DNA of 45,512 nucleotides. Source: an uncultured Porphyromonadaceae bacterium (GTDB lineage: Bacteria > Bacteroidota > Bacteroidia > Bacteroidales > Muribaculaceae). Below are positions 2,901 to 41,641 of this stretch, in pieces (position 1 is the first letter of the stretch; every line of letters starts with the position of its first letter). The position numbers and the translations under genes are program-made. The notes beneath the pieces were generated by a model, which did no database searches, was not told the DNA's origin, and saw only the letters and a program-made list of their open reading frames with translations. The stretch covers positions 1 through 45,512 of the forward strand of contig CAMWSN010000002.1 in the NCBI GenBank assembly GCA_947176925.1, read 5' to 3'.

Positions 2901-4730
2901 ATGAAGAAAATTCTACTTTTTTTTATTGCGGCATTGACGCTGTCGGCACTTTGTCCTGCGGCTTCTGCTGCTGTTTATCGTGTTGATATTGATGATGTTA
3001 GTAACGTGACTGCCGTTATTAACTTAGATGATGACCCTCTGACTCTCCAAAACGGCCTCAATGAAATCGATATGGGTGATCAGCAGTGGCTTCGTATCAT
3101 TGCAAACGACGGCGTGCTGTTCACTGACCTGACCGTCATTGACAGTTATGATAATTCGGAGCGCAGTGTGGCCGGAGGAATTCAGAATCTTCCTGACGGA
3201 CGCATGTATTTTGACTTCAGGGCTTCTTTCCCCGAGGATGAAAGCCTTCGCGTGCGCACTCAGGCTGCCGCCGATGCCCGAACCGCCTCGTTTACGCTCA
3301 ATATTGACAATCCCGCCAAGGCAGACCTCCAGCTCAAGGATGTCAGTATTCCCCTCACTCAGGGCAGCAACGTCATCAAGTTTGAACCAGCCTCCGAGTC
3401 AGTTTATGAAATTGTCCCCTTGGATTATTACTCAATCTATTCGTTGACCCACAATGGTCAGCCCGTGGATCGCGGCGAAGGCTATCGCTATCAGGTCAAG
3501 GTGGCCGACGGTGATGTCGTTGATGTAGTAACCACTTATCCCGACGTGGATTGCGCAATCTCATTCTCCCTCTCCGGCGATGATGTCGATGACTTCATTC
3601 GCGAGGTTGACGTCAACGGCCGTCCCGCCACTGATTGGAATAAACCCGGCTTCTCCGTCAAGTGTGGTTCTGTCCTGACCTTGCGCGGGCGCACGGACGA
3701 GTATGAGGTAATGTCGTTCACGGTCAATGGCGCTGTGGAGACTTTCTCTGCTGAGGTATCCCTCTTCATAGCCAAAGATACGGAACTCAAAATCGACGTT
3801 AGAAAATACGCCTCATATAAGATTACGCTCAACGTTGACGATCCCGCCCGCGTGACGGCTTATCGCGGCTATATCAACGATGGAGAAACCTTTGAACTCC
3901 AGGCTGGAGCGAACACCCTTGAGATTCTTCGCAAGAACCCCTTCTTCACTCTCAAACCGGCCGAAGGATGCTATATCAAGACTCTGACCGTTACCGGTCA
4001 GGAAGATTTTACCCCGGATGAACTGACCAAGTCCTCGGTTCAGGTTCCCGTGGTTGATGACGACGTAGTTACCGTCGTTACCGCCGAAATTGTCCGTGAC
4101 CAAAAGGCGATGGTTTATGTCCATAACTCCAAATCTGCCGGCGAGGATTTCAGCGTCAAACGCGCCGATAATTCTGCCGTTTCGCTTACCGACGGATATA
4201 ATGAATTGCCTTTCTATGACCGTGATAACACGTTTGTTATCACCAAGGCCCTTGAGGCGTCAACCGCCGTTTACCAGAACGAAGAACCCGTGGAACTCGA
4301 CTTTGCCGGATATAATTTCTACGTTGACCTTTGGCATGGCGACGTCCTGAAAATTTTCTATGACTATGCGCCCAAGACCTATCAGCTGACCATCGAATCT
4401 GATGACGAACTGAGCGATGTCGATGTCCTGATGGATCATATTCGTCCCCTTGCTGTCGGTCAGGCTAAGGCCTTGGAATTCAGTCATGTTACTGTCGCCC
4501 CGAAGGCCGGAGCACAAGTGGGCGTGGAAGTAAATGGCGAACCTATCGTCGCCGAATCTGACGGCTCGTTTGCGCTGACCGTGGATGCCGACAAAACCGT
4601 CAAGATTACCCGTGAAGAAAGCTCTATGACCGAGATTTCTGCTGACAAGGCTCAGCGAGCCTACGACCTTCTTGGCCGTCCCGCCTCAAAGGGTCTCCTG
4701 ATTCTCCAAGGCAAGAAAATCGTCAAGTAA
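2901..4730 (+). CDS. Secreted repeat protein of unknown function with C-terminal sorting-like tail
   Basis: I do not recognise a named family. The 609-residue protein starts with a signal peptide (MKKILLFFIAALTLSALCPA, cleavage after ASA near residue 23). The mature part reads as about six tandem beta-rich modules of 80-100 residues (roughly 24-125, 128-215, 217-302, 306-400, 403-490, 493-571). The modules share a pattern of an opening hydrophobic strand, a Leu/Val-rich turn, a V-x-V-N-G segment and a closing D-x-V/T-x-x-I strand. The C-terminus (YDLLGRPASKG...GKKIVK, 588-609) matches the tail of three other secreted proteins in the window and resembles a type IX secretion sorting signal, so export to the cell surface is inferred. 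Residues 399-487 align with part of the product of 6708-8900 (VRDQ...MV, EPVE, GDVLKI), so the two are paralogues. It has its own promoter and terminator. Confidence 0.85.
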   Translation: MKKILLFFIAALTLSALCPAASAAVYRVDIDDVSNVTAVINLDDDPLTLQNGLNEIDMGDQQWLRIIANDGVLFTDLTVIDSYDNSERSVAGGIQNLPDGRMYFDFRASFPEDESLRVRTQAAADARTASFTLNIDNPAKADLQLKDVSIPLTQGSNVIKFEPASESVYEIVPLDYYSIYSLTHNGQPVDRGEGYRYQVKVADGDVVDVVTTYPDVDCAISFSLSGDDVDDFIREVDVNGRPATDWNKPGFSVKCGSVLTLRGRTDEYEVMSFTVNGAVETFSAEVSLFIAKDTELKIDVRKYASYKITLNVDDPARVTAYRGYINDGETFELQAGANTLEILRKNPFFTLKPAEGCYIKTLTVTGQEDFTPDELTKSSVQVPVVDDDVVTVVTAEIVRDQKAMVYVHNSKSAGEDFSVKRADNSAVSLTDGYNELPFYDRDNTFVITKALEASTAVYQNEEPVELDFAGYNFYVDLWHGDVLKIFYDYAPKTYQLTIESDDELSDVDVLMDHIRPLAVGQAKALEFSHVTVAPKAGAQVGVEVNGEPIVAESDGSFALTVDADKTVKITREESSMTEISADKAQRAYDLLGRPASKGLLILQGKKIVK

Positions 4731-4752
4731 CCATAAACTTCACGATAAAAAC

Positions 4753-4790
4753 AAGCGGAAGCATCTCCACTTCGGATGCTTCCGCTTTTA
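4753..4790 (+). terminator. Rho-independent terminator after the secreted protein gene
   Basis: A 13-bp perfect stem (4753-4765 with 4775-4787) and a 9-base loop are followed by TTTTATTTT. It lies 22 bases after the stop codon. Confidence 0.9.
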
Positions 4791-4810
4791 TTTTGGGGTA
4801 ATCGTATTGA

Positions 4811-5179
4811 TTAGGCAACGTTAGGTACGGGACCGTATTGGTTAGGTACCGGCTGGCTTTCCTTGACGAACCAGATGATCAGAATGATGGTACCTACAAC
4901 GGGGATGAGCTGAAGGAAAATCCACCATCCGGATTTGTCAATGTCATGAAGGCGACGCACACCGAGACCCAACGAGGGGAGAAGCAGAGCAAGTACACAA
5001 ATGGTCGGAAGCAATGTGATATTGATAATTCCGCCGATAACTCCGGCAATGGCGCCCACGATGAAACAGAACAGAGCGAACCACCAGTATTCGCTGCGGG
5101 AGGCGCGGCCGTTGAAGTCACAATACTTGTTGAGGGCCATATTGACAGCCTGGCCAAAGCTTACTTGATACTGATACAT
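4811..5179 (-). CDS. DUF805 family inner-membrane protein
   Basis: The 122-residue protein has the DUF805 pattern: an N-terminal NKYCDFNGRASRSEYWWF motif, then hydrophobic segments (about residues 30-53, 55-72 and 86-106), with the conserved GVRRLHDIDKSGWW between the second and third. The molecular function of this family is not established. I chose ATG at 5179 rather than the in-frame codon at 5221 because a good promoter (5249-5219) would start transcription near 5214, making the upstream start untranscribed; the shorter form also begins like other family members. It is a single-gene unit between two terminator-bounded regions. Confidence 0.88.
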   Translation of the reverse strand: MYQYQVSFGQAVNMALNKYCDFNGRASRSEYWWFALFCFIVGAIAGVIGGIINITLLPTICVLALLLPSLGLGVRRLHDIDKSGWWIFLQLIPVVGTIILIIWFVKESQPVPNQYGPVPNVA

Positions 5180-5218
5180 AAACAAACTAAATATAATTAA
5201 AGTGTTACTAATCAGCTG

Positions 5219-5249
5219 CAAAGTTAAGCATTTTCCATTGGACTGCCAA
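5219..5249 (-). promoter_or_regulatory. Promoter of the DUF805 gene
   Basis: On the minus strand TTG (5249-5247), a 20-base spacer and TAACTTTG (5226-5219) match the Bacteroidota consensus. The -7 box overlaps the alternative upstream start, which supports the start at 5179. Confidence 0.7.
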
Positions 5250-5275
5250 GCGAAATGAAATAAAATGAAATAAAT

Positions 5276-6130
5276 TTAGGTTGTGAGGTGACGTAGGGTA
5301 GGGTCGCGTTTAAGCCAGGTGAGTTGTTTTTTGGCGTAGACGCGGGTGTTTTTCTTGATGCGTTCAATGGCGGTTTGGCGGTCCATCAGGCCGTCAAACC
5401 ATGCAAACATCTCTTTGAATCCCACGGTGTTGAGGGCGTTTTCGCCACGCAGGGGGAGCAGGCGCTGCGCCTCCTCTTCGAGCCCGTTGGTGATCATCAA
5501 GTCTACCCTCCGGTTGATGCGGTCAAAAAGCTCCTCGCGTGCCATGTCTATGGCGTATTTTTCAATCTCAAAGGGGCGTTCTTTTGCGGCTCCCGTGCGC
5601 AGCTCGCTGACGGGAATGCCGCTTTGGCGGATAATTTCAAGGGCATGGATGAGTCGCCGATGATTGCGGAGGTCTGCCTCGGCATAATATTTCGGGTCGA
5701 GGCGCCGGAGTTCTTCACGCACTGCCTCAATTCCTTCTTGCTCAAAGAATTGGAGTGTCTCCTGACGTACCTCTGCCGAAATCGTCGGCAGCGAGTCAAG
5801 TCCTCGGGTCAGTGCGTCGATATACATCATTGATCCGCCGCAGACTATCACCCGGTCCAGCCCGCGCCGTTCCATATCGGCAATCAGCCGCAGGGAGTCT
5901 TCTTCGAAGCAGGCGGCCGAGTAGTAGTCCGCGGGCTCTAAGAATTCAAGCAGATGATGAGTGACACCGCCGCGCTCTTCTTCGGAAGGCACAGCTGTGC
6001 AAATAGGCATGTGGCGGTAGACCTGGCGCGAGTCGGCAGAGATGATTTCACAGCCCATTTCCCGGGCCCATTTTACCGCCAAAGCCGATTTTCCCGAGGC
6101 CGTTGGGCCTGTCAGGACAATAACTTTCAT
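5276..6130 (-). CDS. miaA: tRNA dimethylallyltransferase MiaA
   Basis: Transfers a dimethylallyl group to N6 of A37 in tRNAs that read codons starting with U. The 284-residue protein opens with the P-loop GPTASGKSALAVKWA (residues 8-22), followed by the conserved ISADSRQVYRHM, which recognises the isopentenyl donor site. CGGSMMYIDALTRGL and the C-terminal KKNTRVYAKKQLTWLKRDP are also typical. It is somewhat shorter than many MiaA proteins (about 300-315), lacking a C-terminal extension. Its ATG shares one base with the stop codon of the upstream cupin gene (TGATG), which suggests the two are co-translated. Confidence 0.96.
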   Translation of the reverse strand: MKVIVLTGPTASGKSALAVKWAREMGCEIISADSRQVYRHMPICTAVPSEEERGGVTHHLLEFLEPADYYSAACFEEDSLRLIADMERRGLDRVIVCGGSMMYIDALTRGLDSLPTISAEVRQETLQFFEQEGIEAVREELRRLDPKYYAEADLRNHRRLIHALEIIRQSGIPVSELRTGAAKERPFEIEKYAIDMAREELFDRINRRVDLMITNGLEEEAQRLLPLRGENALNTVGFKEMFAWFDGLMDRQTAIERIKKNTRVYAKKQLTWLKRDPTLRHLTT

Positions 6131-6558
6131 CAGAACTGGTCCCAGTCAACCCAGTTTGATGCCGGGTAGCGCCACGAGTCAAGCAGGGCCACAGGCAACT
6201 GCTTGTCGCTCCAAACCTGGAGAATCGAACCGGGCTCGGTCGCTTTCAGGCAGTTGGCATAGCCGGCGGGCACGCAGAGGACCTGGCTCTTTTGGTCTGA
6301 GATATGAAATATTTCCGGCTTGAGGTCCGGCGAGGGATTTTCCCAGTCGTCAGGTTGCACGAAGGCCATGGTGAAGCCGCCTTTGATGCAGTGAAACCAT
6401 TTGCGCTCGTGTTGATGACCATGCCAGCCGCGGACAACAGAGGCGTCGGGGTGGTGAATCGTGTAGGTGCGTTCCACTCCTTCAAGGTGGAAATCGTTGA
6501 GCGACATGATGACGCCGCGATGGTCGCGAAAAATTTCGCCGTCAATTACTGTGACCAT
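6130..6558 (-). CDS. RmlC-like cupin, dTDP-4-dehydrorhamnose 3,5-epimerase family
   Basis: A 142-residue small cupin. The segment SVVRGWHGHQHERKWFHCIK corresponds to the RmlC core, in which an Arg-Gly-x-His motif precedes the barrel strand, and VLCVPAGYANCLKA matches the later RmlC strand (VPxGxAHGF in classical members). This suggests a nucleotide-sugar epimerase or isomerase, but it is shorter than classical RmlC (about 180 residues) and no sugar-nucleotide genes are adjacent, so the substrate is open. It is the first gene of a two-gene unit with miaA, from a strong promoter about 65 bases upstream. Confidence 0.75.
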   Translation of the reverse strand: MVTVIDGEIFRDHRGVIMSLNDFHLEGVERTYTIHHPDASVVRGWHGHQHERKWFHCIKGGFTMAFVQPDDWENPSPDLKPEIFHISDQKSQVLCVPAGYANCLKATEPGSILQVWSDKQLPVALLDSWRYPASNWVDWDQF

Positions 6559-6624
6559 TTGTTTATTAAAGGTTTAGTGTTTAGTGTTTGGTGAGACCCC
6601 GGAGCGGGTCGCATTATCTTTGTG

Positions 6625-6655
6625 CAAATTTACGCATTTTCCCTCGTAAAAGCAA
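6625..6655 (-). promoter_or_regulatory. Promoter of the cupin-miaA operon
   Basis: On the minus strand TTG (6655-6653), a 20-base spacer and TAAATTTG (6632-6625) match the Bacteroidota consensus. The leader before the ATG at 6558 is about 60 bases. Confidence 0.7.
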
Positions 6656-6660
6656 GAAAA

Positions 6661-6690
6661 AAGCGGGACTCTTCGCGAGCCCCGCTTTTT
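6661..6690 (-). terminator. Terminator of the 6708-8900 gene
   Basis: Stem AAGCGGG/CCCGCTT (6661-6667 with 6681-6687) extends inward by CTC/GAG across one mismatch, with loop TTCGC. A-runs on the left and T-runs on the right make it potentially bidirectional. The gene reading into it ends at 6708 on the minus strand. Confidence 0.82.
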
Positions 6691-6707
6691 AAGATCACAT
6701 TTTTACC

Positions 6708-8900
6708 TTATTTCATAACTTTCTTACCATTTATGATAGTCAGACCGCGATGGTTGGTATTTACTCTGCGGCCCATCAGGTCGTAAGCCTTGGAGGCATC
6801 TTCAGCGCCGATTTCGGCAATTGAGGTTGAGGGATCATTGTCAATCTTGATCTCCTTGTCGCCATCGGCGGTGACGGTGAAGACTCCGTCTGCTCCGGGC
6901 TCGATAGTCTGGCCGTTAACCTTAACGCTGAGGCCGGTAGCGGCGGCGCGGGCCATGGCCATAGCTGGCTTGATGTGGATTTCTGTTCCGGGAAGTACTG
7001 CATGAGTGGCAGGTGACTCTACGGCTACGACATGGTCATGATAAACCTCAGCATTAACATCCTCGGCAATCTGATAAGTAACAGTGTGAGTATCCTTCTC
7101 CTCACTATAAATCTTCAGCACATCTCCGGCCTTGATCTTGTCAAGTCCTACGGGATAGGGATAGCGGCCATACTTTAAGTCGATTTCTACGGGCTCATCG
7201 TTGAGATACATTGCATAGTCATCTGGATCAATAGCCCATGAATCATCATTGAAATCACCCGTGCCGAACATCACGTGGTTGTAACCGGGTTCGAGCGTAA
7301 TCTTTTTCTCCTGGTCAGTATAGGAAGCGAGGTAAATATCGGTAGACGTCCATTCTGCGTCTTCAAGATAGATAACCATTTCCTGGTCACGAACAAATTC
7401 ATTGGCGTCAATGACGATAGTCATACCATCAGAGAAGTTGCGAATCTGCATATTGCCATAGTAGCCCTCAACAAGCAGGTCTGTGCCGGTGGCTTCATCC
7501 GTTACGGAGTTGAGAACATAGCCGTCCTTGGTTGAGATGCCGAAGTATTCGGGCAGAGCAACTTTTTCATAGACTGTTTCAGCACCGGTAAGCGTTATTT
7601 TTTTGCCCCAATCATCTTCAAGAGCAATGTGTTCCCACGCTTCACACTTGAAGGTAACTTGTTTCATGGGACGCTTGGTAGCCGTAATGGTTACGACATA
7701 TTCATCTTCGGTCAGGATTTCGCCGCGGTATCCGTCTTCTCCATTGTAGAGGATGCTCTCCACTTCATAGTCATCTTCATTCAATTCAATGTAGAAGATG
7801 CTGCCATAGTTGAGGGTAAAGCCTGCAGTGGTACATTCTTCGGCGGTATAAGTTTTGCCGTCACAAGAGAGGCGGCTGAGTACGCCTTCTGTTCCCTCAT
7901 TGGTGAACACGAACTTAACCGGAATGGGTTTGACGGGTGCATCAACAGTGATTACGAGGTTAGAGCCATCTTTCGGGTTGAAAGAATGATAGTAGTTGCT
8001 GTAAGGAATATCTTCGCCGTCAAGTTCAACCTTAAAGAGCTTCTTGCTCCAGGGATTGCGGCCGACTTTGAAATCGGCTTCATTTTCGGGGTCGAATTTA
8101 ACTACGAACTCAGTGCCTTCAATGGTCATGGTTTTACCGCCACGATAAAAGTCAACGTCGGAAGCTGTGCCATTAACTATGCTGACATTTAATGATGCGG
8201 TGCGAAGGTCATCCTTCGATGTGCTGGAGACGATGAAAGTGGTGCTTCCTTCAAAATCGCCCGGTCTGATGGATATGTAGTTATTATAGGAGCTATAAGT
8301 ATAGTTGACTTCATTGCCTTCTTCATCCGTAACAGTATTGAGTACGCAGTCGTCATTGAGATAGAGGTAGAAAGTGTAGACATCTGTAACATCGTAGCTC
8401 AATTCGCCGCTTTCATCCATATAAACATATTTGCCGCTAACGTAAGCGTACTTTATATGGTCAGGATTACCCTTGAAAGTGAAGACCTTGGACTCTACCT
8501 TAGTGGTTTCGATATTGATTACCTGTCCTTCTTCAACATAGAATCCGTCAGAAGTATCATATCCGGTAAATTCTACTTCTGATTGCGGGTTTGTATTCGG
8601 ATTGGGATAGAGAACCCAAGAACTGCTGAATTCAGTCCCGTCAGCTTTCAAGATTGAGGAAATTTTGTAATCGTCAGCGGCATTGAATACCAATTTGCGA
8701 AGTTCATAGTCTTCGCCAAACGTAACCTGAAGGTCGTTGTTTTCGTCAAACGTCAGGGTGACGTCCGAACTGTATCTCTGAACCGGTTGCAGGTGAGTGG
8801 CGTCGTCAACGTGGAATGTGACGGTGCGGGTTTCGGCTTGCGCCGCAATGCCAAAGAGCGATGCGACGAATAGCGTCAATAGAGTGTAGATTTTTTTCAT
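6708..8900 (-). CDS. Large secreted repeat protein, paralogue of the 2901-4730 product
   Basis: Not a family I can name. The 730-residue protein has a signal peptide (MKKIYTLLTLFVASLFGIAAQA, about 22 residues) and then about seven tandem beta-rich modules of 85-95 residues, rich in Asp, Glu, Tyr and Val. The sixth module (VRDQEMVIYLED..., NDEPVEIDL, KAGDVLKIYSEE) aligns with module 5 of the protein at 2901-4730 (VRDQKAMVYVHN..., NEEPVELDF, HGDVLKIFYDY). In both the next and last module ends in a V-x-VNGxxI stretch, so the two genes share a common origin. The C-terminus (AYDLMGRRVN...NGKKVMK) is the shared sorting-like tail. The acidic repeats could bind calcium or polysaccharide, but nothing in the sequence proves this. 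It is a monocistronic unit with its own terminator. Confidence 0.85.
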   Translation of the reverse strand: MKKIYTLLTLFVASLFGIAAQAETRTVTFHVDDATHLQPVQRYSSDVTLTFDENNDLQVTFGEDYELRKLVFNAADDYKISSILKADGTEFSSSWVLYPNPNTNPQSEVEFTGYDTSDGFYVEEGQVINIETTKVESKVFTFKGNPDHIKYAYVSGKYVYMDESGELSYDVTDVYTFYLYLNDDCVLNTVTDEEGNEVNYTYSSYNNYISIRPGDFEGSTTFIVSSTSKDDLRTASLNVSIVNGTASDVDFYRGGKTMTIEGTEFVVKFDPENEADFKVGRNPWSKKLFKVELDGEDIPYSNYYHSFNPKDGSNLVITVDAPVKPIPVKFVFTNEGTEGVLSRLSCDGKTYTAEECTTAGFTLNYGSIFYIELNEDDYEVESILYNGEDGYRGEILTEDEYVVTITATKRPMKQVTFKCEAWEHIALEDDWGKKITLTGAETVYEKVALPEYFGISTKDGYVLNSVTDEATGTDLLVEGYYGNMQIRNFSDGMTIVIDANEFVRDQEMVIYLEDAEWTSTDIYLASYTDQEKKITLEPGYNHVMFGTGDFNDDSWAIDPDDYAMYLNDEPVEIDLKYGRYPYPVGLDKIKAGDVLKIYSEEKDTHTVTYQIAEDVNAEVYHDHVVAVESPATHAVLPGTEIHIKPAMAMARAAATGLSVKVNGQTIEPGADGVFTVTADGDKEIKIDNDPSTSIAEIGAEDASKAYDLMGRRVNTNHRGLTIINGKKVMK

Positions 8901-8953
8901 TCGTGTAACTATTTGTTGGTTTATTTTTGAGTTCTATTGGAAATTCAATGGTG

Positions 8954-8987
8954 CAAAATTACGCAAAATTCTTAAAAATCCTACAAA
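8954..8987 (-). promoter_or_regulatory. Candidate promoter of the 6708-8900 gene
   Basis: The minus strand has TAATTTTG (8961-8954) as a -7 box and TTTG (8987-8984) upstream with a 22-base spacer, longer than the usual 19-21. The predicted leader is about 50 bases. Confidence 0.45.
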
Positions 8988-9033
8988 AAACTTGAAAATT
9001 TTTACTTTTTCTTTAAAATTTGCGGCATTTTGG

Positions 9034-9063
9034 TTGTTTTCTCGCCAATTTTGACTAAATTTG
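9034..9063 (+). promoter_or_regulatory. Promoter of the 9107-10834 gene
   Basis: TTG at 9034-9036, a 19-base spacer and TAAATTTG at 9056-9063 match the Bacteroidota consensus. Together with the opposing box near 8954 it forms a divergent promoter region. Confidence 0.65.
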
Positions 9064-9106
9064 CAATCAAATTAAACCCAAGTTACACAATTTTCCACAA
9101 CTCTAA

Positions 9107-10834
9107 ATGAAGAAAATTTACTTTACCATTGCTCTCGCTTTCGGCGTGGCCTCCGTTCAGGCCGCATTGCCCCATAAAGCTCCCGCAATGTATGCCGACG
9201 CTCCCGGGCAGGAAGAAACCTCTGACTGGCAAACGATTGGCGAATGTGCCTACACCGACGACCTTGCTACCACTTTCTGGAGCGTCGGTACTCAGACCTA
9301 TAACGTGACGGTTCAGGAAGATGCTCTCCACCCCGGAATGTATCGAATCATCAATCCCTGGAAAAACTATCCCGCGCCAGAGCGAGCCGCAATTGAAAAT
9401 CATGAAGATTATCCCGGTGACCTACTCAGCGGCGATGAATATTACATCCTGATTGATGCCACTAACCCCGAGAAGGTGAAAATCAAACCCTCGCCCCTCG
9501 GCATTGTCTATAAACCCAAGTCCATCAATTATGACGTTCAGCCCCCGGTGGAGGCTCAGCAGAGTCGTATATGTACCGCCTATGGCAAAAGCGAACTTAT
9601 CGGCAAATATAACATTTCGGCCGAAGCGGCCGATAAGGCTTGCGGAACCTTGGTGGACGGAGTGATCACCTTCCCTCAGCGTCAGGCCGTATATATTATA
9701 AGCGAGAATGCCGACAACCCGGATGACCTTGACTGGCATATCGGCAACAAGTACGGCGGATTCTCACTAAACCTCAACGGCACGACCGTCCCCGTAAACT
9801 ATGACTTTTCCGTAGTGACCAAGACCGCTTACTGCCCCTCTGAAGCCGGAAATTATCAGTTCTACGTAGTTGGTGACGAAAATATCCCCGTGCTCCGCTA
9901 TGCTGTGGTCTACGAATGGCCTGACCATCCCGTGGCTGCCGACGAATGTATCCAAACCGGAAAAAATATCCGTCCGGACCAGGTGACGGTGGTCAGCACT
10001 AAGGGAATGCCCACTCGCTGCGCCCACGTCTACATCATGGCCGCCGATGCCGAGGGAACCATCAAGAAGGCGCAATACTTCGAAGTGTTCAACCCCGAAT
10101 TTGAAGCCGAAGAGTGGGAACCCTTCTCGGAAGGCACTATGACCGAAGGCTTCCTCTCGTCGCTATATCCTACGCTTTTCAAGTCAACGGACGTGGCTGT
10201 AACAATCGAAAAGCATAAGACCAAAAAGGACTATTATCGCGTCGTTAACCCCTATGATAACTTTGCCGAAGCTGAACAATATCTCACCTACGGACATGGC
10301 CATGACCATCACCTCTACATTAACGCCTCTGACCCTGAAAACGTCTACATCGAACGTTCACCCTTAGGCCTTGAAGTGCTTGAAAGCGAACTCTACATTG
10401 GCCATGACTGGGCTGACCTGCTCTGGATGTGGGGCTCTGACGACTATGAGAGCGACAAAAACTTCTTTGAAATGTATTATGGCGTGACCTCCAGCGGCAG
10501 CACGTTTAAGGACGGAGTCCTGACCTTCGCTCCCTCGGCCGGAATTTACCTGAGCCTCAGCGGCGGTGCGCTATATGATACCAACGTCACTCCCAACCCT
10601 GACTTTGACTATGAAGCATACAAGGCCGCTCAGGAAGCCGGCACGAGCTACAATGTCGCTCCCTATCTTCCCGGCAACTTCAAGCTGACCATCAATAAGC
10701 TCACCGAAAGCAGTATCGATGCAATCATGGCCGCTACGCCTGACGCTCCCGTCTATGATCTGCAGGGACGCCGCGTTGCCAAGCCTTCAGCCGCCGGCAT
10801 TTACATCGTCAACGGCAAAAAAATTAAGAAGTAA
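9107..10834 (+). CDS. Secreted two-repeat protein with C-terminal sorting-like tail
   Basis: Function unknown. The 575-residue protein has a short signal peptide (MKKIYFTIALAFGVASVQA). Two copies of one module are visible. The first is around residues 37-130, with W-QTIGECAYTDD, then YRIINPWKNY, then YYILIDATNPEKV and KPSPLGI. The second is around 345-430, with W-PFSEGTMTEGF, YRVVNPYDNF, HHLYINASDPENV and ERSPLGLEV. Each is followed by a segment ending in G-V-(I/L)-TF, then an aromatic strand (QAVYIIS, AGIYLSL). Between them is a distinct region (about 225-335). The protein ends YDLQGRRVAKP...GIYIVNGKKIKK, the clearest of the four sorting-like tails in the window, so cell-surface or extracellular location is inferred. 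It is not homologous in its body to the two neighbouring secreted proteins. Confidence 0.85.
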   Translation: MKKIYFTIALAFGVASVQAALPHKAPAMYADAPGQEETSDWQTIGECAYTDDLATTFWSVGTQTYNVTVQEDALHPGMYRIINPWKNYPAPERAAIENHEDYPGDLLSGDEYYILIDATNPEKVKIKPSPLGIVYKPKSINYDVQPPVEAQQSRICTAYGKSELIGKYNISAEAADKACGTLVDGVITFPQRQAVYIISENADNPDDLDWHIGNKYGGFSLNLNGTTVPVNYDFSVVTKTAYCPSEAGNYQFYVVGDENIPVLRYAVVYEWPDHPVAADECIQTGKNIRPDQVTVVSTKGMPTRCAHVYIMAADAEGTIKKAQYFEVFNPEFEAEEWEPFSEGTMTEGFLSSLYPTLFKSTDVAVTIEKHKTKKDYYRVVNPYDNFAEAEQYLTYGHGHDHHLYINASDPENVYIERSPLGLEVLESELYIGHDWADLLWMWGSDDYESDKNFFEMYYGVTSSGSTFKDGVLTFAPSAGIYLSLSGGALYDTNVTPNPDFDYEAYKAAQEAGTSYNVAPYLPGNFKLTINKLTESSIDAIMAATPDAPVYDLQGRRVAKPSAAGIYIVNGKKIKK

Positions 10835-10852
10835 TAATGCAAAATGCAAAAT

Positions 10853-10890
10853 AATAACGAACCCCGAGCCGAAGCCCGGGGTTCGTTATT
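10853..10890. terminator. Bidirectional terminator between convergent genes
   Basis: A 14-bp perfect stem (10853-10866 with 10877-10890), a 10-base loop and flanking A/T runs. Its right arm ends exactly one base before the stop codon of the leftward ATPase gene at 10891, so it can serve both transcripts. Confidence 0.88.
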
Positions 10891-12453
10891 TTAATTGATC
10901 TGCGCGCGGATGGCGCGGCGGATTCTTTCGGCTGCAGGTGAGGGAGACTTCAGTATGTTGAGAATCGCGGCGATGTAGCCCCGATGGTCTCCGCTGCCGG
11001 TCAGGGTGCCGACATTACTCTGGGAAAGCATTGACTTCTGATTATAGACGCGGAGTACCGACTGGTAATCATCATCACGGATATAACCGTGGAAATCGCG
11101 GCAAAACTGCTCATAGATGGCCCGCGGATTAATTTCATACACCAGGTCCATCATGTGCTCCTCAAGCTTGGAAATCGTGGCAAACCGTCCGTCAATACGA
11201 TGTTCAATCGTGCGCTTGACGTAATGGCGCGTATGTTGCAGGGCCTGGGATTTCGAGTCGGCCTTGAAGAGATTCATAACGGCGGCTTTAACCCTGGCAA
11301 AGGCTTTGTTTTCATCGCGCCCGTGGGCCGAGGCTACGGCGCGGATCACCTCCTCAACCATCAGCATATTTTCGATTTCAGCCACTTCTGGGACCATGAT
11401 TTTCTTCTTTCGCAAATAGTTGACCTCCTGAGGCGAGCGGCGGTCGCGGTCCACTATGCCGATGCTGTCAAGATGGTGAAATGCCCCTAAGGAGTTGAAG
11501 ACGCGGGTTGATTCAATCACGCGGTCACATGACCCGAGGGCTTTGACCGTATATTCCGGGAAAATCAACGGGTAAAGTTTGGCGTCGATGGAGCGCGTGG
11601 CGTCACCTTCGATAAACAATACCGGACGGCGGGCACCGAGTATGGCGAGATACATCTCCTCGCTCAGCTGTGAATCGCGCGGGAGCAAGTCGTAATCAAA
11701 CACGTCGGCCTCGGCCGAACATCCGCGCACCCAGACCGTGGCGGCCGACGAACGGGTCGAAGCAAAGTCAAGGTCATGAGTGGTGTAGATAAACGTGCAG
11801 TCCGGACGTAGGGCCTCCACGCGGTCCCATACGGTCCGGATGGTCGAGGGATGGAGAAACAGTTCCGGCGAATCAACGGGAATCACCGCATCTGCCGGAG
11901 CATAAAGTGCTGCACCGAAGTAGTACAAGACGAGTTTTTCGCCCGTAGAGAGTCGGTTCTGGGATCGCGTTTCACCGTCGGTCGCCGACGCGAACTCTAA
12001 TGAGCCGTTATGGCGTAAAATGTCATTTTCCGGAAAGATTTCGCGCCAGAGGTCCAGCACGCGGTCCAGTTTGGTCGGCGTCACGGGCTCGTCGTTACGT
12101 CCGGATAATTTGCGGGCAAGCAGATTGACCATCTCCTCCTGGAGCAGCAGTGACATCAGTCGCTCGGCCTCAGTGGGCGGCGCAAAATTCTCGGCATTTC
12201 CTGAGGTAAGGGGGGAGCGGGCCGCGGCTTCGGCATAGAGGGCGTCGATGCTCCCGGCCTCAGCTTCCGGCTTGTAGGCCCCGAAGAGCGCACGCAGGGG
12301 CGAGAGGGAGAAAATTTTCTCCGGAGCCACCGAGGATAGAAGGCGCGAGGTGAATCGCGTCTTGCCCGCGCCGTTGGCGCCGATGATTACCAGCTGGCGG
12401 GTCTCCGGCCCCAATTCGGGGCGTTCACCTGATTTTTTCGGAGGGAATATCAT
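10891..12453 (-). CDS. AAA/ABC-type ATPase fused to DUF4435 (TOPRIM-like) domain
   Basis: The 520-residue protein has two parts. Residues 1-250 form an ABC-like AAA ATPase: Walker A GANGAGKT (25-32), signature-like LSTGEK (168-173), Walker B AVIPVD (D194) continuing SPELFLHPS, and a TTHD switch histidine (H226). The residue after the Walker B Asp is Ser195, where related SMC/RecF-like ATPases normally have the catalytic Glu. Residues about 277-500 match DUF4435, a TOPRIM-like nuclease fold: FIEGD (E282), GIVDRDRRS (D335, D337) and AEIENML. This layout resembles OLD-family nucleases and the fused form of the PARIS AriA-AriB anti-phage system. However, it sits in a housekeeping setting: its ATG overlaps the ribE stop (ATGA), so it is co-translated with riboflavin synthase. 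Either a defence or a core DNA-metabolism role is possible. Confidence 0.85.
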   Translation of the reverse strand: MIFPPKKSGERPELGPETRQLVIIGANGAGKTRFTSRLLSSVAPEKIFSLSPLRALFGAYKPEAEAGSIDALYAEAAARSPLTSGNAENFAPPTEAERLMSLLLQEEMVNLLARKLSGRNDEPVTPTKLDRVLDLWREIFPENDILRHNGSLEFASATDGETRSQNRLSTGEKLVLYYFGAALYAPADAVIPVDSPELFLHPSTIRTVWDRVEALRPDCTFIYTTHDLDFASTRSSAATVWVRGCSAEADVFDYDLLPRDSQLSEEMYLAILGARRPVLFIEGDATRSIDAKLYPLIFPEYTVKALGSCDRVIESTRVFNSLGAFHHLDSIGIVDRDRRSPQEVNYLRKKKIMVPEVAEIENMLMVEEVIRAVASAHGRDENKAFARVKAAVMNLFKADSKSQALQHTRHYVKRTIEHRIDGRFATISKLEEHMMDLVYEINPRAIYEQFCRDFHGYIRDDDYQSVLRVYNQKSMLSQSNVGTLTGSGDHRGYIAAILNILKSPSPAAERIRRAIRAQIN

Positions 12454-13052
12454 ACGTTCATCAGGGCGGCAGCATACTTGCCGATGATGTCAAACTCCAA
12501 GTTTACCACCGTGCCGACTCGGATCTGGCTGAAGTTGGTGTGTTCAAGGGTGTAAGGGATTATGGCGACGCTGAATTTTCCGGGCTCGCTGAGGCAGACG
12601 GTAAGGGAGACGCCGTTGACCGTGATTGATCCTTTTTCTACGGTAAGGTAGCCGCGGCGGCGCTTTTCATGGTCAACGTCATATTCAAACGTGAACTCTA
12701 CGGAGCCGTCAAGCTCGCGGCGCTCCGTGCATCGGGCCGTGCAGTCTACGTGGCCTTGCACGATATGGCCGTCCAGTCGCCCGTTCATCAGCATTGACCG
12801 CTCAAGGTTGACCAGGTCTCCCGGGCGGAGCAGGCCCAAGTTTGAGCGCCTGAGAGTCTCTTCGATGGCCGTCACCGTGTAGTGGCGCTCGTCAGGCAGC
12901 GAGGTTACCGTCAGGCAGACACCATTGTGAGCCACCGATTGGTCTACCTTAAGCTCCGGCGCAAATGAACACTCGACGGTAAGCTCTACGTTACCACCCT
13001 CGGATTTCACGGCGGCTACTTTGGCCGCTTCTTCAACTATTCCGGAAAACAT
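12450..13052 (-). CDS. ribE: Riboflavin synthase, alpha subunit
   Basis: Catalyses dismutation of two 6,7-dimethyl-8-ribityllumazine molecules to riboflavin plus a pyrimidine by-product, the last step of riboflavin synthesis. The 200-residue protein shows the two lumazine-binding half-domains: MFSGIVEE at the start, NGVCLTV (about 43-49) in the first repeat and NGVSLTV (about 145-151) in the second, plus GHIVQGHVD at the hinge. It is the first gene of a two-gene unit with the ATPase-DUF4435 gene. No FMN riboswitch is evident upstream. Confidence 0.97.
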   Translation of the reverse strand: MFSGIVEEAAKVAAVKSEGGNVELTVECSFAPELKVDQSVAHNGVCLTVTSLPDERHYTVTAIEETLRRSNLGLLRPGDLVNLERSMLMNGRLDGHIVQGHVDCTARCTERRELDGSVEFTFEYDVDHEKRRRGYLTVEKGSITVNGVSLTVCLSEPGKFSVAIIPYTLEHTNFSQIRVGTVVNLEFDIIGKYAAALMNV

Positions 13053-13058
13053 ATTTTA

Positions 13059-13091
13059 AATTAGGAATTAGCAATTGGGAATTAGGAATTA
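13059..13091. repeat. Short AT-rich direct repeat upstream of ribE
   Basis: AATTAGGAATTA occurs at 13059-13070 and again at 13080-13091. Such degenerate 10-20-base AT-rich direct repeats also occur before dnaE (17255-17285) in this window. No function is evident. Confidence 0.6.
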
Positions 13092-13102
13092 TTCTTTTTC
13101 AG

Positions 13103-13110
13103 CAAAGTTA
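13103..13110 (-). promoter_or_regulatory. Candidate -7 box for ribE
   Basis: The minus strand reads TAACTTTG (13110-13103), a consensus -7 box. No TTG is found at the expected -33 distance, so this is tentative. Confidence 0.4.
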
Positions 13111-13185
13111 CTTATAATTTAGTTTAAAAGGGAGGTTTGCGTGTTAATTTTTGTTAAGGGTTTCAGATTTTCGTGTTTTATTTCG

Positions 13186-13193
13186 TAACTTTG
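13186..13193 (+). promoter_or_regulatory. Candidate -7 box for mdh
   Basis: TAACTTTG at 13186-13193 lies 37 bases before the mdh ATG. TTTC at 13161-13164 occupies the expected -33 position, with a 21-base spacer, one base off consensus. Confidence 0.55.
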
Positions 13194-13230
13194 TAACACC
13201 GAAAAATAACCAAATATAAGTAATACAGAT

Positions 13231-14160
13231 ATGTCAAAAGTTACCGTTGTCGGCGCCGGAAACGTAGGCGCCACTTGTGCAAACGTACTCATCACCACCG
13301 GCATTGCCGATGAAGTAGTCCTCATCGATATCAAGGAAGGTCTCAGCGAGGGCAAAGTCATGGATATCATGCAGACTGCCAATATCCTTAACGTTCAAAC
13401 CCGCGCTACGGGCGTCACCAACGACTATTCAGCCACTGCCGGCTCAGACGTCGTTGTCATCACTTCAGGTATCCCCCGCAAGCCCGGCATGACCCGCGAA
13501 GAACTCATCGGTGTGAACGCCGGTATCGTCAAGAGCGTGACTGACCAGGTTCTGGCTCACTCTCCCAACGCCGTTATCGTCTGCGTATCCAACCCGATGG
13601 ACACCATGACTTACCTTATCCACAAGACCTCCGGCCTGCCCAAGAACCGCATTATCGGCATGGGCGGCGCACTTGACAGCGCCCGCTTCCAGTACTTCCT
13701 GAGCAAGGCTCTCGGCGCAAACCCTGCTGAAGTTGAAGGCATCGTTATCGGCGGACATGGCGACACCACCATGATTCCCCTGACCCGCTATGCCGCTCAC
13801 CGCGGTATCCCCGCATCAACCCTCCTGCCCGCTGAAACCCTCGCTAAGGTAGCTGCTGACACTATGGTGGGCGGTGCTACCCTGACCGGCCTGCTCGGCA
13901 CCTCCGCCTGGTATGCTCCCGGTGCAGCCGCTGCAAGCGTGGTTGACGCCGTGATCCATGACACCAAGCGCATGATCTCATGCTCAGCTCTCCTCGACGG
14001 CGAATATGGCCAGAAGGACATCTGCATTGGTGTGCCCTGTATCCTCGGAAAGAACGGTATTGAAAAAATCGTTGAATTTGACCTCAACGACGAAGAAAAA
14101 GCCCTCTTTGAGAAGAGCGCTGAAGCCGTTCGCAAAACCAACGCTGCCTTGAGTTGCTAA
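13231..14160 (+). CDS. mdh: Malate dehydrogenase, NAD-dependent, LDH-like type
   Basis: Interconverts malate and oxaloacetate; in anaerobic Bacteroidales it serves the reductive branch leading to fumarate and succinate or propionate. The 309-residue protein has the Rossmann motif GAGNVGATCA (G8xG10xxG13) and IDIKEGLSEGKVMDI. Its substrate loop GIPRKPGMTREEL carries Arg in the RKPGM motif, which marks malate rather than lactate specificity. VSNPMD and the catalytic histidine region IGGHGDTTMIPL are also present. A strong terminator follows 16 bases after the stop. Confidence 0.97.
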   Translation: MSKVTVVGAGNVGATCANVLITTGIADEVVLIDIKEGLSEGKVMDIMQTANILNVQTRATGVTNDYSATAGSDVVVITSGIPRKPGMTREELIGVNAGIVKSVTDQVLAHSPNAVIVCVSNPMDTMTYLIHKTSGLPKNRIIGMGGALDSARFQYFLSKALGANPAEVEGIVIGGHGDTTMIPLTRYAAHRGIPASTLLPAETLAKVAADTMVGGATLTGLLGTSAWYAPGAAAASVVDAVIHDTKRMISCSALLDGEYGQKDICIGVPCILGKNGIEKIVEFDLNDEEKALFEKSAEAVRKTNAALSC

Positions 14161-14176
14161 ACTGAAAAATTACGGA

Positions 14177-14222
14177 CCGCTCACTTCGTCGGCCAACCCT
14201 TTTTGACCGACGAAGTGGGCGG
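14177..14222 (+). terminator. Terminator of mdh
   Basis: A 16-bp stem (14177-14192 with 14207-14222, one G-T pair) and a 14-base loop, followed by a T-rich stretch. It ends 16 bases before the next ATG, so it could also limit read-through into, or affect translation of, the peptidase gene. Confidence 0.82.
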
Positions 14223-14238
14223 CTCATCTTATTTTATC

Positions 14239-16389
14239 ATGAACAAGTTTTTGAAACCAATCGCTATCGCCGGGCTGGCCGCAATGACCGCCGCCTCCAC
14301 CTCCTGCTCCAAAGACGAAGAAAACGTCATTGACCGCCCCGAATTTACCTCGGCCGACGGAGTATTCTCTATCAGCGCCCTCGAGGCTCTGGGCCGCGTA
14401 AATGCCCCTGTCCTCAGCCCTGACCGCTCCAAAATCCTCTATGCCGTCAGCTACGAAAGCGTAGAGCAAAACCGCTCGAACGCTGACCTTTACCTGATGG
14501 ACATTGACGGCAAAAATCAAACCCGTCTGACCAAGTCGGCTAAAAGTGAAAGTAACTACTGCTGGATCGACGGAGGCAAGAAAATCGCCTTCCTTTATCC
14601 TGATTCTGACGGCAAACAGCAAATTTGGACCATCAATGCCGATGGCTCCGGCCGCACTCAAATATCCAAGGAAGAAAAGGGAGTGGAAGGTTTCCTCTTC
14701 TCGCCTGACGAAAAGAAAGTCCTGATGATTCAGTCGGTCAAGTGGGCCCGTACGGCTCAGGAAGCCTATCCTGACCTCCCTGACGCTACCGGCCGTATCA
14801 TTGATGACCTGATGTACAAACACTGGGACGAATGGGTGACCGAGATACCCCATCCTTTCATTGCTGATTTCGACGGCGCAGGCCTTTCCAATCAGAAAGA
14901 CATCATGGATGATGCAGAAGATCCCCTCTATGAAGCCCCGATGAAGCCCTTCGGCGGAGTCGAATCATTCGCATGGACCCCTGACAGCAAGAAATTAGCC
15001 TACGTTTCCCGCAAAAAGACAGGCCTGGAATATGCCATCTCAACCAACTCTGACATCTTCCTCTACGACCTTGAGGCCGGAACTACCGAAAACCTCACTT
15101 CCGGCATGATGGGCTATGATACTGCCCCGACCTTCAGCCCTGACGGCTCAAAGCTGGCTTTCCTCTCCATGGAACATGACGGCTATGAAAGCGACATGAA
15201 CCGCATTATGGTGCGCGACATGGCCTCCGGCGAAATCACCGACCTGACCGCTGAATGGGACTACACCGTCGACCAGATTGCCTGGCAGCCCGATTCGCGC
15301 GGCCTCTTCTTCCTCGCCTACCGTGACGGAGTCAAGCCCGTGTTCTCCATCCTGCTTGACGGCACAATCTCCGTAATCTCCGCCGGTGAGGTTGACTACG
15401 AGTCTCTCCAGCCCGTCAGCGAAAACGAGGTTATCACGATGGCTCACTCCATGATTTTCCCCAACGAAATCTATCATGCCGCCAACGGCTCGGCTCAAAA
15501 GCTCACCGGAGTCAACGACGACATCTTCAATCAGCTCCGCATGCCGACTGTGGAGCGTCGCCTTGTACCGACTACTGACGGCAAAGAGATGCTCACCTGG
15601 ATTGTCAAGCCCCAAGACTTTGATTCAACCAAGCAATACCCCGCTATTCTTTACTGCCAGGGCGGTCCACAGCAGGCCGTCAGCCAGTTCTGGAGCTTCC
15701 GCTGGAATCTCGCCCTTATGGCCGCCAACGGCTATGTGGTCATCGCTCCTAACCGCCGCGGCCTTCCCGGCTTCGGCAAGGAATGGAACGCTCAGATTTC
15801 CGGCGACTACGGCGGTCAGAACATGAAGGACTACTTTGCCGCAGTGGATAACGTCAAGACCGAACCTTGGGTCGACGAAAAGCATATCGGCGCCGTCGGT
15901 GCCAGCTACGGCGGATTCTCCGTCTATTGGCTCGCCGGTCACCATGAAGGCCGCTTTGCCGCTTTGATTGCCCACGCCGGCATCTTCAATATCGAAGCCC
16001 AGTATCTCGAAACCGAAGAAATGTGGTTCGCCAACTGGGATATGGGTGGCGGCGCGGTCAATGCTCCGGCCGATACCAAGGATGACCCTGACTATGGCGC
16101 ATACTGGAACACGGCCAATCCCATCGCTCAGGCTACCTTCGCCACCTCCCCCCATAAGTTTGTCGACAAATGGGACACCCCGATTCTGATCACTCACGGC
16201 GAACTTGACTATCGCATCCTCTCATCTCAGGGCGAGATGGCCTTTAACGCCGCCAAACTTCGCGGAGTCCCCGCCGAAATGCTCATCTTCCCCGACGAAA
16301 ACCACTGGATTCTAAAGCCTCAAAACGCTATCCTCTGGCAACGGGTCTTCTTCCGCTGGCTCGACAAATGGCTAAAACCCCAACAATAA
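14239..16389 (+). CDS. S9 family (prolyl oligopeptidase-type) peptidase, lipoprotein
   Basis: Serine peptidase of the acylaminoacyl-peptidase/DPP IV group, expected to cleave short peptides at the cell envelope. I chose ATG 14239 (MNKFLKPIAIAG) because it starts a lipoprotein signal with lipobox ASTSC, lipidated Cys23; the longer in-frame start at 14203 would place sequence from the mdh terminator in the protein. The N-terminal half is a beta-propeller with repeated blades such as APVLSPDRSKILY, FLFSPDEKKVL and PTFSPDGSKLAF. The C-terminal alpha/beta hydrolase domain has the nucleophile elbow GASYGG (Ser556), Asp657 in HGELDYRI and His689 in DENHWILK, so the catalytic triad is complete. The length of 716 residues is typical. 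Confidence 0.94.
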   Translation: MNKFLKPIAIAGLAAMTAASTSCSKDEENVIDRPEFTSADGVFSISALEALGRVNAPVLSPDRSKILYAVSYESVEQNRSNADLYLMDIDGKNQTRLTKSAKSESNYCWIDGGKKIAFLYPDSDGKQQIWTINADGSGRTQISKEEKGVEGFLFSPDEKKVLMIQSVKWARTAQEAYPDLPDATGRIIDDLMYKHWDEWVTEIPHPFIADFDGAGLSNQKDIMDDAEDPLYEAPMKPFGGVESFAWTPDSKKLAYVSRKKTGLEYAISTNSDIFLYDLEAGTTENLTSGMMGYDTAPTFSPDGSKLAFLSMEHDGYESDMNRIMVRDMASGEITDLTAEWDYTVDQIAWQPDSRGLFFLAYRDGVKPVFSILLDGTISVISAGEVDYESLQPVSENEVITMAHSMIFPNEIYHAANGSAQKLTGVNDDIFNQLRMPTVERRLVPTTDGKEMLTWIVKPQDFDSTKQYPAILYCQGGPQQAVSQFWSFRWNLALMAANGYVVIAPNRRGLPGFGKEWNAQISGDYGGQNMKDYFAAVDNVKTEPWVDEKHIGAVGASYGGFSVYWLAGHHEGRFAALIAHAGIFNIEAQYLETEEMWFANWDMGGGAVNAPADTKDDPDYGAYWNTANPIAQATFATSPHKFVDKWDTPILITHGELDYRILSSQGEMAFNAAKLRGVPAEMLIFPDENHWILKPQNAILWQRVFFRWLDKWLKPQQ

Positions 16390-39357: not shown

Positions 39358-41619
39358 TTAGAGGCGGATGAGTTTTCCGGCGCGGATGTAGATGTGACCT
39401 CGGGCGGGGTTGCTGATCTTACGGCCCTGCAGGTCATAGATTGCAGAGTCAGCTGATTCAGGCGTCAATTCCTCGATGGTTGTGGTATGTTCGAGATATG
39501 AGAATGGCGTTTTATATTGCATTCTGTTATCATAGTAAAGGGCGCCTGAATAATAGCCGAAATCCCGGTCGCTAAGGGGTACTTCAATAGTGCATTGTTT
39601 GCTTTCGCCAGCGTTAAGATAGGGGCTGACGCTTCGGTATGTTTGAATTTTATCCGCGCTGTCAAGAATGTAGAGGGTCATTGAGTCGTCATAGTAGCCC
39701 TCGGTACATGTAATGGTCCATGAGAACTTGGCGATATCGCCGGGTTGTATTCCGTCAAATTTGAAGTCGGTAACTTCGATGGTGGTCTTTGCCGGGCGTT
39801 CTGCCAAGATGACGGGTATCGGATCATTGATTGCCTGATTGGATTGCTGACTGTAGAAATATAGGAGATATTCTCCAGGTTCCAGGGTGGCGCTGGCATC
39901 AGCAGTAAGCTCCCCTACGTATTCGAACGGCATGGTCTCGCTCCCGGCCAGCTGAATGTTGGTGCTTGAGCCCCATGCCAATACTTTTTCAGAGCCACTT
40001 TTGATGATTCTTGGGAACATGCTGCCGAGATATTCTGTATCAGTCTTGTTGGTCAGCGTCATGGAAAGGCTGAAAGTTGTGCCGATATAGATAGTTTTGT
40101 TCTCGGGTAGGTCGGTAATGGTGAATCCCGGTGCATTCTCGGCCACGAAGTTGATGTAGTTATCCTTAACCGTGGCAGTCAGTTCGCTGATATTGGATTT
40201 GGGAATGAATACGCGTTGCCATTCGCCACCGGGTACTTTGTAGACGGGACGCGCAGTGTATGTACCCTCGGGGAGACTTGTCGGAATCAGGAAGGAAAGG
40301 GTAGAATATCCTGCAGTCGTGGGGACGTTCGGAGTGGTCGTATATCTAATGTAGGTGGGTTCGCCGCCATCAGCGGGGATTAATTCTAAGTCAATTTCTG
40401 TCCCGGCGGGAATGGGTAATGAGCCGATATTTTGAAGATACCAGTAGAAAACTGCGTAACCACCTAATTGAACTTTGGAATTGTTGGGCTTGAAGTCTTC
40501 AGTTGAGCCGAACATATAGACGGGTTTGGAGCCTTCAACCGGCTTTTGTACGCCCAGGATTGCATGTTGGTTCAAGTTGTAACCGCCGTCAAATCCGCCG
40601 GTTCCTTGTGCAGCGGGATTGAGGGCATTGAGTTTGAAATAACCGTCGCTCAGGCCTCCCCAGCCCCAGTTGAAGTGGAAGAGCCCATCTTCTGAGTAGC
40701 CGTCGCAGACGAACTGGTGTCCGCCTTGTTCGCTTGCACCGCCGTAGATTACAGGCATCCCGGCAGAGATGTCAGCGTAGATCAGGTCTTCCCATTCGGT
40801 TGAATCAAAGAAGTTACGCTCGGCTTTCCAGATGGCCTGGTCATAGTCAAAATAATTGATCAGGGCGCCGCCAATACGAACCTGGTTTGCAGCTGAAGCC
40901 GAGGTTGAGTAATCCATCTCCACGGAGTAACCGCAAGCTTTCATCAGAGTAGCCACGGCAAGTTTCTGTTCATCGGTTGAGTAGCTGTTATAATTATCGG
41001 TCATATTATTCCAGTCGAAGGAAGTTTCGCTGAAATTCATTGATTCGGTTTTGTTGCCCGTTTTCCAGGTATAGGAGATTGAACCTTGACCTTGGACTGG
41101 CCATTGGTGATAGTTCATTACCTGGGCCATAGCCGTAGCTACGCATCCTGTATAGCACTTTCTGCCGTAAAGTTCGGGACACAGTTCATTATAGGGATTT
41201 CCTTGATCCCACGTGGTTTTCAGCAGGGGCTCAATGGGCTGGCGTTCGGGAGTGGTGGCGTCGGCATGGGTTGAAACTCCGGTTGCGGCAGCGTAAGCAA
41301 TTTGCTGGGAATAGGTTGAGAGCCACCATTTCAGCGCCGGGATTTCCTCGGGATTAAATTCTCCCGAATCAGCATAAGCCAAAAGGGGTAGGGCAATGTC
41401 GTCGGCCGGGAGAATCATGAAGCCGTCGCCGGAGGAGAAGACGTAGAGTTCCGGAAGCTCGGCAATCAGCTGAGGCGTAGCCTTTCTGTTGCCGATAACC
41501 TTGCGGGCCTGAGAGTTGCCCTTGACTCGAGCCAAAGCCTGAGTCGGACTCAGATGCTCGGCGGAGATGGTGCCGGCTCCGAGAAGGGACAGAAGAACTA
41601 AGGTAAGGGTCTTTTTCAT
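39358..41619 (-). CDS. Secreted C10 family (streptopain-like) cysteine protease
   Basis: I chose ATG 41619 (MKKTLTLVLLSLLGAGTISA, signal peptide); the longer in-frame start lies inside rodA. The 753-residue protein has a Spi/prodomain-like region (about 21-115, LSPTQALARVKG...YVFSSGDGFMILPADD), then the C10 catalytic domain (about 125-360) with Cys159 in CYTGCVATAMAQ, His301 in GGHQFVCDGY and FHFNWGWGG. The C-terminal half (about 365-720) is beta-rich, probably several immunoglobulin-like domains, and the protein ends AIYDLQGRKIS...GHIYIRAGKLIRL, the sorting-like tail. Relatives include streptococcal SpeB, Prevotella interpain and the Bacteroides fragilis bfp proteases. It begins only 22 bases after rodA with no promoter visible between them, so it may be transcribed with the cell-shape genes. 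Confidence 0.93.
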   Translation of the reverse strand: MKKTLTLVLLSLLGAGTISAEHLSPTQALARVKGNSQARKVIGNRKATPQLIAELPELYVFSSGDGFMILPADDIALPLLAYADSGEFNPEEIPALKWWLSTYSQQIAYAAATGVSTHADATTPERQPIEPLLKTTWDQGNPYNELCPELYGRKCYTGCVATAMAQVMNYHQWPVQGQGSISYTWKTGNKTESMNFSETSFDWNNMTDNYNSYSTDEQKLAVATLMKACGYSVEMDYSTSASAANQVRIGGALINYFDYDQAIWKAERNFFDSTEWEDLIYADISAGMPVIYGGASEQGGHQFVCDGYSEDGLFHFNWGWGGLSDGYFKLNALNPAAQGTGGFDGGYNLNQHAILGVQKPVEGSKPVYMFGSTEDFKPNNSKVQLGGYAVFYWYLQNIGSLPIPAGTEIDLELIPADGGEPTYIRYTTTPNVPTTAGYSTLSFLIPTSLPEGTYTARPVYKVPGGEWQRVFIPKSNISELTATVKDNYINFVAENAPGFTITDLPENKTIYIGTTFSLSMTLTNKTDTEYLGSMFPRIIKSGSEKVLAWGSSTNIQLAGSETMPFEYVGELTADASATLEPGEYLLYFYSQQSNQAINDPIPVILAERPAKTTIEVTDFKFDGIQPGDIAKFSWTITCTEGYYDDSMTLYILDSADKIQTYRSVSPYLNAGESKQCTIEVPLSDRDFGYYSGALYYDNRMQYKTPFSYLEHTTTIEELTPESADSAIYDLQGRKISNPARGHIYIRAGKLIRL

Positions 41620-41641
41620 CGTGAAGTATAATAAAAGTTGA

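Follow-up and report, generated by a model that had tools for sequence, protein, structure and literature searches.

The window considered here is the whole analysed stretch of 45,512 nucleotides, from contig CAMWSN010000002.1 of an uncultured Porphyromonadaceae bacterium placed in the Muribaculaceae (assembly GCA_947176925.1; 195 contigs, 2.14 Mb). Near its start lie two genes for probable surface proteins, called A and B. Each protein carries a predicted signal peptide, a series of beta modules, and a tail resembling the short C-terminal domain (CTD) recognized by the type IX secretion system (T9SS). The genes converge across about 2 kb that encode DUF805, IPP transferase (MiaA), and dTDP-sugar isomerase/FdtA-like proteins. 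Their features are as follows. Unless a line says more, modules of A were placed by slot profiles and module hidden Markov models (HMMs), and those of B by module HMMs.

2901..4730, + strand: protein A, 609 amino acids (aa), six beta modules (open reading frame, ORF; family HMM match along its entire length)
2901..2969, + strand: putative Sec-type signal peptide of A (Lys, hydrophobic stretch, AxA; predicted by eye; low model confidence at residues 1-22)
2970..3278, + strand: A module 1, aa 24-126, least conserved (also identity comparison)
3279..3551, + strand: A module 2, aa 127-217, most conserved (also identity comparison)
3552..3815, + strand: A module 3, aa 218-305
3816..4106, + strand: A module 4, aa 306-402 (also AlphaFold; residues 303-399 modelled alone, confidence 94)
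4107..4376, + strand: A module 5, aa 403-492
4377..4625, + strand: A module 6, aa 493-575
4626..4727, + strand: putative short T9SS C-terminal sorting domain of A, aa 576-609 (tail HMM E 1.5e-10, A tail in training set; motifs as in PMC11969387)
6708..8900, - strand: protein B, 730 aa, seven beta modules (ORF; family HMM match)
8829..8900, - strand: putative Sec-type signal peptide of B (predicted by eye from sequence)
8487..8828, - strand: B module 1, aa 25-138 (including a module-1 HMM trained without B)
8205..8474, - strand: B module 2, aa 143-232, the weakest assignment in B (including the same module-1 HMM)
7926..8204, - strand: B module 3, aa 233-325
7665..7925, - strand: B module 4, aa 326-412
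7380..7664, - strand: B module 5, aa 413-507
7089..7379, - strand: B module 6, aa 508-604
6822..7091, - strand: B module 7, aa 604-693
6711..6821, - strand: putative short T9SS C-terminal sorting domain of B, aa 694-730 (tail HMM E 5.5e-14, B tail in training set)

Two paralogues built of beta modules

BLASTP aligns residues 110-609 of A with residues 216-730 of B (E 2e-28, 24% identity), a similarity well beyond chance that marks the two as paralogues. A first-pass annotation, made from the letters alone, had already proposed this, with modules of about 90 residues, six in A and seven in B, and both the paralogy and the counts hold. It had seen the likeness near the C-terminal ends; the likeness is there, but extends far beyond those ends, because the alignment spans most of both proteins. 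Likewise, of the motifs it placed in the last module, VNG does lie there, but VRDQ closes module 4 of A and GDVLKI closes module 5. The source genome (G000) holds a third full-length copy (C11:23743-25887).

The internal repeats were examined by aligning 30 full-length relatives, cutting A into six slots, and comparing the slot profiles pairwise with hhalign. The strongest pairs were 2-4 (98.2%), 1-4 (97.8%), 2-5 (97.8%), 3-6 (97.1%) and 1-2 (96.6%), and all 21 reversed-profile controls stayed at or below 20.9%. Individually, several pairs gave no match, among them 1-5 (1.2%), 3-5 (14.9%), 1-3 (15.4%) and 4-6 (21.2%). The pattern is one in which slots 1, 2, 4 and 5 would be one type and slots 3 and 6 another, apparently through a three-module unit used twice (1 with 4, 2 with 5, 3 with 6).

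Module HMMs, with A and B in the training set, tile A with six modules and B with seven. With B and the other long members left out of its training, the module-1 HMM still found B 25-138 (independent E-value 2.4e-7) and B 144-232 (1.3e-3). Its best reversed control among four proteins tested reached 7e-3, so the second module of B stands on weaker evidence than the first. Module number varies among the relatives, with six in A, seven in B, nine in L044 and L055, sixteen in L047, and six in other members; such variation is as expected of a stalk. Module 2 is the most conserved (34% mean pairwise identity; 90% between A and its orthologue in a genome of the same genus, G001). Modules 2-5 share 80-90% identity in that orthologue pair, and module 1 is the least conserved (22% mean; 63% in the pair).

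Structure prediction, suggested in the first-pass annotation as a check, does show a repeating domain. AlphaFold (AF2), given A with seven other sequences, returned a mean local confidence (pLDDT) of 83.9 and a global score (pTM) of 0.47. Given module 4 by itself, together with 32 other modules, it returned a confident seven-strand sandwich (pLDDT 94.0, pTM 0.82). Searches with A by Foldseek and VIA point to Gram-positive pilins and pilus adhesins, Cna B repeats and VHL (best Z 6.7). A single module finds UafA (Z 6.0; 84 residues, 3.2 Å) and VHL (Z up to 5.8), and has no Foldseek match with E < 0.001. All these Z scores lie below 8, and middling scores are common. The modules are modelled as ordinary seven-strand beta sandwiches, with an arrangement near CnaB/pilin, MSCRAMM, and VHL/prealbumin-like domains and no close match. 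A fold class that is known, in what the models give as a common arrangement, does not show a new fold, and the earlier notion of a new class goes, to this extent, too far.

The sequence family, in contrast to the fold, does appear to be unnamed, lying outside Pfam and NCBIfam. A, B and 30 relatives returned only scattered, sub-threshold matches there, so the repeats are placed in no known sequence family, as the first-pass annotation had held. A PDB sequence search with B gave nothing at E<=1. The best PDB match of the family profile, the GH43 arabinanase 4kca (1e-8), was set aside, its alignment lying mostly on the shared C-terminal tail. PF18998 (Flg_new_2) resembles the modules in its short tandem beta repeats, its GY...W/NG...T pattern and, weakly, in profile (33-36% for modules 3 and 6). 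However, the remaining modules reach only 0.5-7.7%; comparison with 30 PF18998 stretches (0.5-35.6%) is not significant, and the modules are not assignable to that family. Neither A nor B has a BACON match at E<=1, and none stands among the 25 listed of the 55 Pfam families matched by 30 members. BACON and classical carbohydrate-binding module entries are also not among the structure matches listed for A and a single module, an absence to which no weight is given. A role in anti-phage defence was rejected, as PADLOC has no match to A or B at E<=0.01. One scan of viral contigs found no relative, and a viral structure library gave no match at E<=0.001.

A short T9SS tail and a family of the Muribaculaceae

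The sorting-like tail reported for both proteins is borne out. The last 34 residues of A contain AYDLLGR, GLLI and GKKIVK, and the last 37 of B contain AYDLMGR, GLTI and GKKVMK; both tails thus hold Tyr-x-x-x-Gly, Gly-x-x-Ile, and a basic C-terminus. PMC11969387, on experimentally studied short CTDs, defines them by three motifs: B with Tyr and Gly, D with Gly-x-Tyr/Asn and Ile, and E, which is basic. Where that definition has Tyr/Asn at the third position of Motif D, A has L and B has T. A and B resemble the short-CTD cargo of Prevotella intermedia in their short tail, which bears motifs B, D and E, in their predicted signal peptide, and in having PorU in the genome; they differ in that their passenger modules belong to another, unnamed family.

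An HMM built from 22 tails and searched at E<=0.01 finds short tails at 48 places in the source genome; PF18962, the long-CTD model, matches at 10. Within the window, short tails lie near 4617, 6711, 10712, and 39373. The source genome also carries SprA_N (5.8e-182) and T9SS_sortase (PorU; 3.6e-252, over the cut-off), and among the 37 genomes of one draw, 36 have SprA_N and 35 have T9SS_sortase. PMC11969387 (2025) gives P. intermedia as the only species for which both long and short CTDs have been reported. Because the source genome has 48 short and 10 long tails, this survey suggests that Muribaculaceae also has both types, and that short tails are common there.

Two other genes of the window bear on this inventory. 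A 575-aa protein at 9107-10834 (+), adjoining B, has the same short tail and, by eye, two similar halves; it has no Pfam or NCBIfam match, and its orthologue adjoins the B orthologue in G001. The gene at 39364-41727 (-) encodes a C10 peptidase that combines a Spi inhibitor domain with a short T9SS tail; at L049, too, a family member has a C10 peptidase next to it.

Using an HMM made from 14 sequences, 171 of 397 Muribaculaceae genomes match at E<=1e-10, although those around 1e-11 to 1e-14 may reflect the tail alone. The 150 stronger matches tabulated represent 137 genes in 100 genomes. At the level of the order, a threshold of 1e-20 leaves three matching genomes out of 393, each of them a member of the Muribaculaceae. 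By these searches, the family is found in the Muribaculaceae only, and is large there. Its modules are also fused to other extracellular domains: a sulfatase (L056), a calycin-like domain (L046), and a beta-propeller (L043). In the first of these (L056:5049-7289), a sulfatase bearing an SGSH C-terminal domain carries two beta modules and the tail at its own C-terminus.

Partner genes and local order

Many relatives of A and B are encoded together with a secreted subtilase and a leucine-rich-repeat (LRR) protein of about 1200 residues, both T9SS-tailed. Here, linkage means within 8 kb, and the counts of trios are lower bounds, some loci lying at contig ends. Among 86 LRR loci in 85 of the 397 genomes, at least 54 have both a family member and a subtilase, all on the same strand. 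Conversely, an LRR gene lies within 8 kb of 67 of the 68 best subtilase loci, and at least 60 of the 137 family genes are LRR-linked. In the 33 complete trios tabulated of the 54, 26 run F-S-L and seven S-L-F (F, beta-module family gene; S, subtilase; L, LRR gene), with median gaps of 110 and 50 bp. The source genome has its own trio on contig 11.

Asp155, His210 and Ser632 (numbering of the first sequence) are invariant in seven of seven aligned subtilases, the triad being assigned from the surrounding motifs. Pfam S8 was found in seven of the ten neighbours scanned; two had no match and one was FeoB. In PADLOC, the partner subtilase matches a generic subtilase model. Pfam LRR was found in all five LRR neighbours scanned, and also in L058.

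A and B themselves are stand-alone paralogues outside the trio. Both orthologues are kept in G001 (78% and 74%), where a block corresponding to 5279-16386 (5.3-16.4 kb) is inverted, either by an inversion or by a difference in assembly. The genes do face each other across about 2 kb in the window, as first described, but this orientation is not conserved, because the orthologues in G001 point the same way. Across the eight loci compared for the clade of A, no neighbour is conserved farther than the closest genome. B groups with its own orthologue and one linked member, a placement made doubtful by long branches. An AAA_21 + DUF4435 protein is encoded at 10894-12453 (-); in G001, three ORFs with no match among the window ORFs compared come after its orthologue.

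What the modular proteins might do

The first-pass annotation had suggested an adhesin or a glycan-binding protein. The reading preferred here, to which we give about an even chance, is that A and B are adhesive or scaffold arms displayed by the T9SS, with a variable N-terminal tip. The proteins would leave the cytoplasm through Sec and pass the outer membrane via SprA; a PorU-type sortase would then cut off the short C-terminal domain and join the new C-terminus to surface polysaccharide. Outside the cell, they would be rods of Ig/CnaB-like sandwich modules. The middle modules would form a conserved shaft, and the N-terminal module, most distant from the anchor and fastest to diverge, would be the likely contact for a ligand of host, dietary or bacterial origin. 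In relatives within the trio, the arm may hold or present substrate close to the surface protease, as the presence of both partner genes beside it suggests. A and B would be duplicates that work without a local partner set.

Several observations weigh against this proposal. No protease or LRR gene is linked to either A or B, and the clade that holds A (eight sequences, support 100/100) contains no trio-linked member. The trio itself is incomplete at 32 of the 86 LRR loci, which lack one or both partners among the matches listed (16 with the subtilase only, 5 with the family member only, 11 with neither). Module 6, which adjoins the anchor, also evolves fast (26% mean identity; 70% in the orthologue pair), so divergence is not limited to the N-terminal tip. 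The rod shape is not confidently predicted, given the low pTM of whole A. Finally, PF18962 (Por_Secre_tail) matches neither A nor B at E<=1.

Other explanations accommodate parts of the same evidence. The modules might be carbohydrate-binding accessories, with A and B binding mucin or dietary glycans for degradation at the surface or on vesicles. The sulfatase fusion at L056, a rhamnogalacturonan lyase gene adjoining member L077, and a weak Pfam Gal-bind_lectin match in two of 30 members (best E 0.0018) speak for this; however, the Pfam matches are scattered and sub-threshold, protease and LRR protein rather than glycosidases are the partners most often found, and the part of the neighbours of A and B that was scanned holds no SusC/D-like gene. 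We consider this reading unlikely. Location beside the subtilase on one strand, and the trio copy on contig 11, would also suit an arm that is regulator, scaffold or dedicated substrate of that enzyme, with A and B as spare copies that serve that enzyme from another place in the genome. This we consider quite improbable, since an LRR partner gene is missing, at the cut-off chosen, from 29 of the 100 listed genomes with family genes, and the A clade is never linked.

The likeness to Gram-positive pilins and pilus adhesins among the best structural matches raises the prospect that A and B are subunits of a surface layer or fibre, assembled as such pilins are. CnaB domains have a conserved Lys-Asn isopeptide with an acidic residue, and Gram-positive pilin and MSCRAMM proteins are anchored by LPXTG. 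With PitA, GAS T-antigen pilin, Cpa and UafA, the modelled proteins share tandem seven-strand sandwiches in cell-surface proteins. However, no sequence match is significant, Z does not exceed 6.7, and the host is Gram-negative, with T9SS instead of LPXTG anchoring. Lys is conserved at 70% or more inside modules 2 and 5 only (K160, K484); because modules 1, 3, 4 and 6 have none, isopeptide chemistry is not indicated. A pilin-like fibre is, on these grounds, very improbable.

The adhesive or scaffold arm may also be seen within its trio. In Tannerella and Porphyromonas, the BspA LRR surface protein and the gingipain proteases are exported by the T9SS, so that an LRR protein and a protease reach one surface there as well; a beta-module third gene is not known beside them. 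Somewhat speculatively, an active subtilase, the LRR receptor and the beta-module arm might form a three-part T9SS-exported machine in Muribaculaceae, acting as a single complex that captures and cuts host or dietary glycoproteins, with its ligand range extended by stand-alone arms, A and B among them.

The Muribaculaceae are abundant in the gut, their surface proteins have been little studied, and the literature that joins them with the T9SS is sparse. The analysis defines an unnamed family of their probable surface proteins, its modules and its putative sorting signal, together with a gene trio of arm, subtilase and LRR protein that is open to direct testing.

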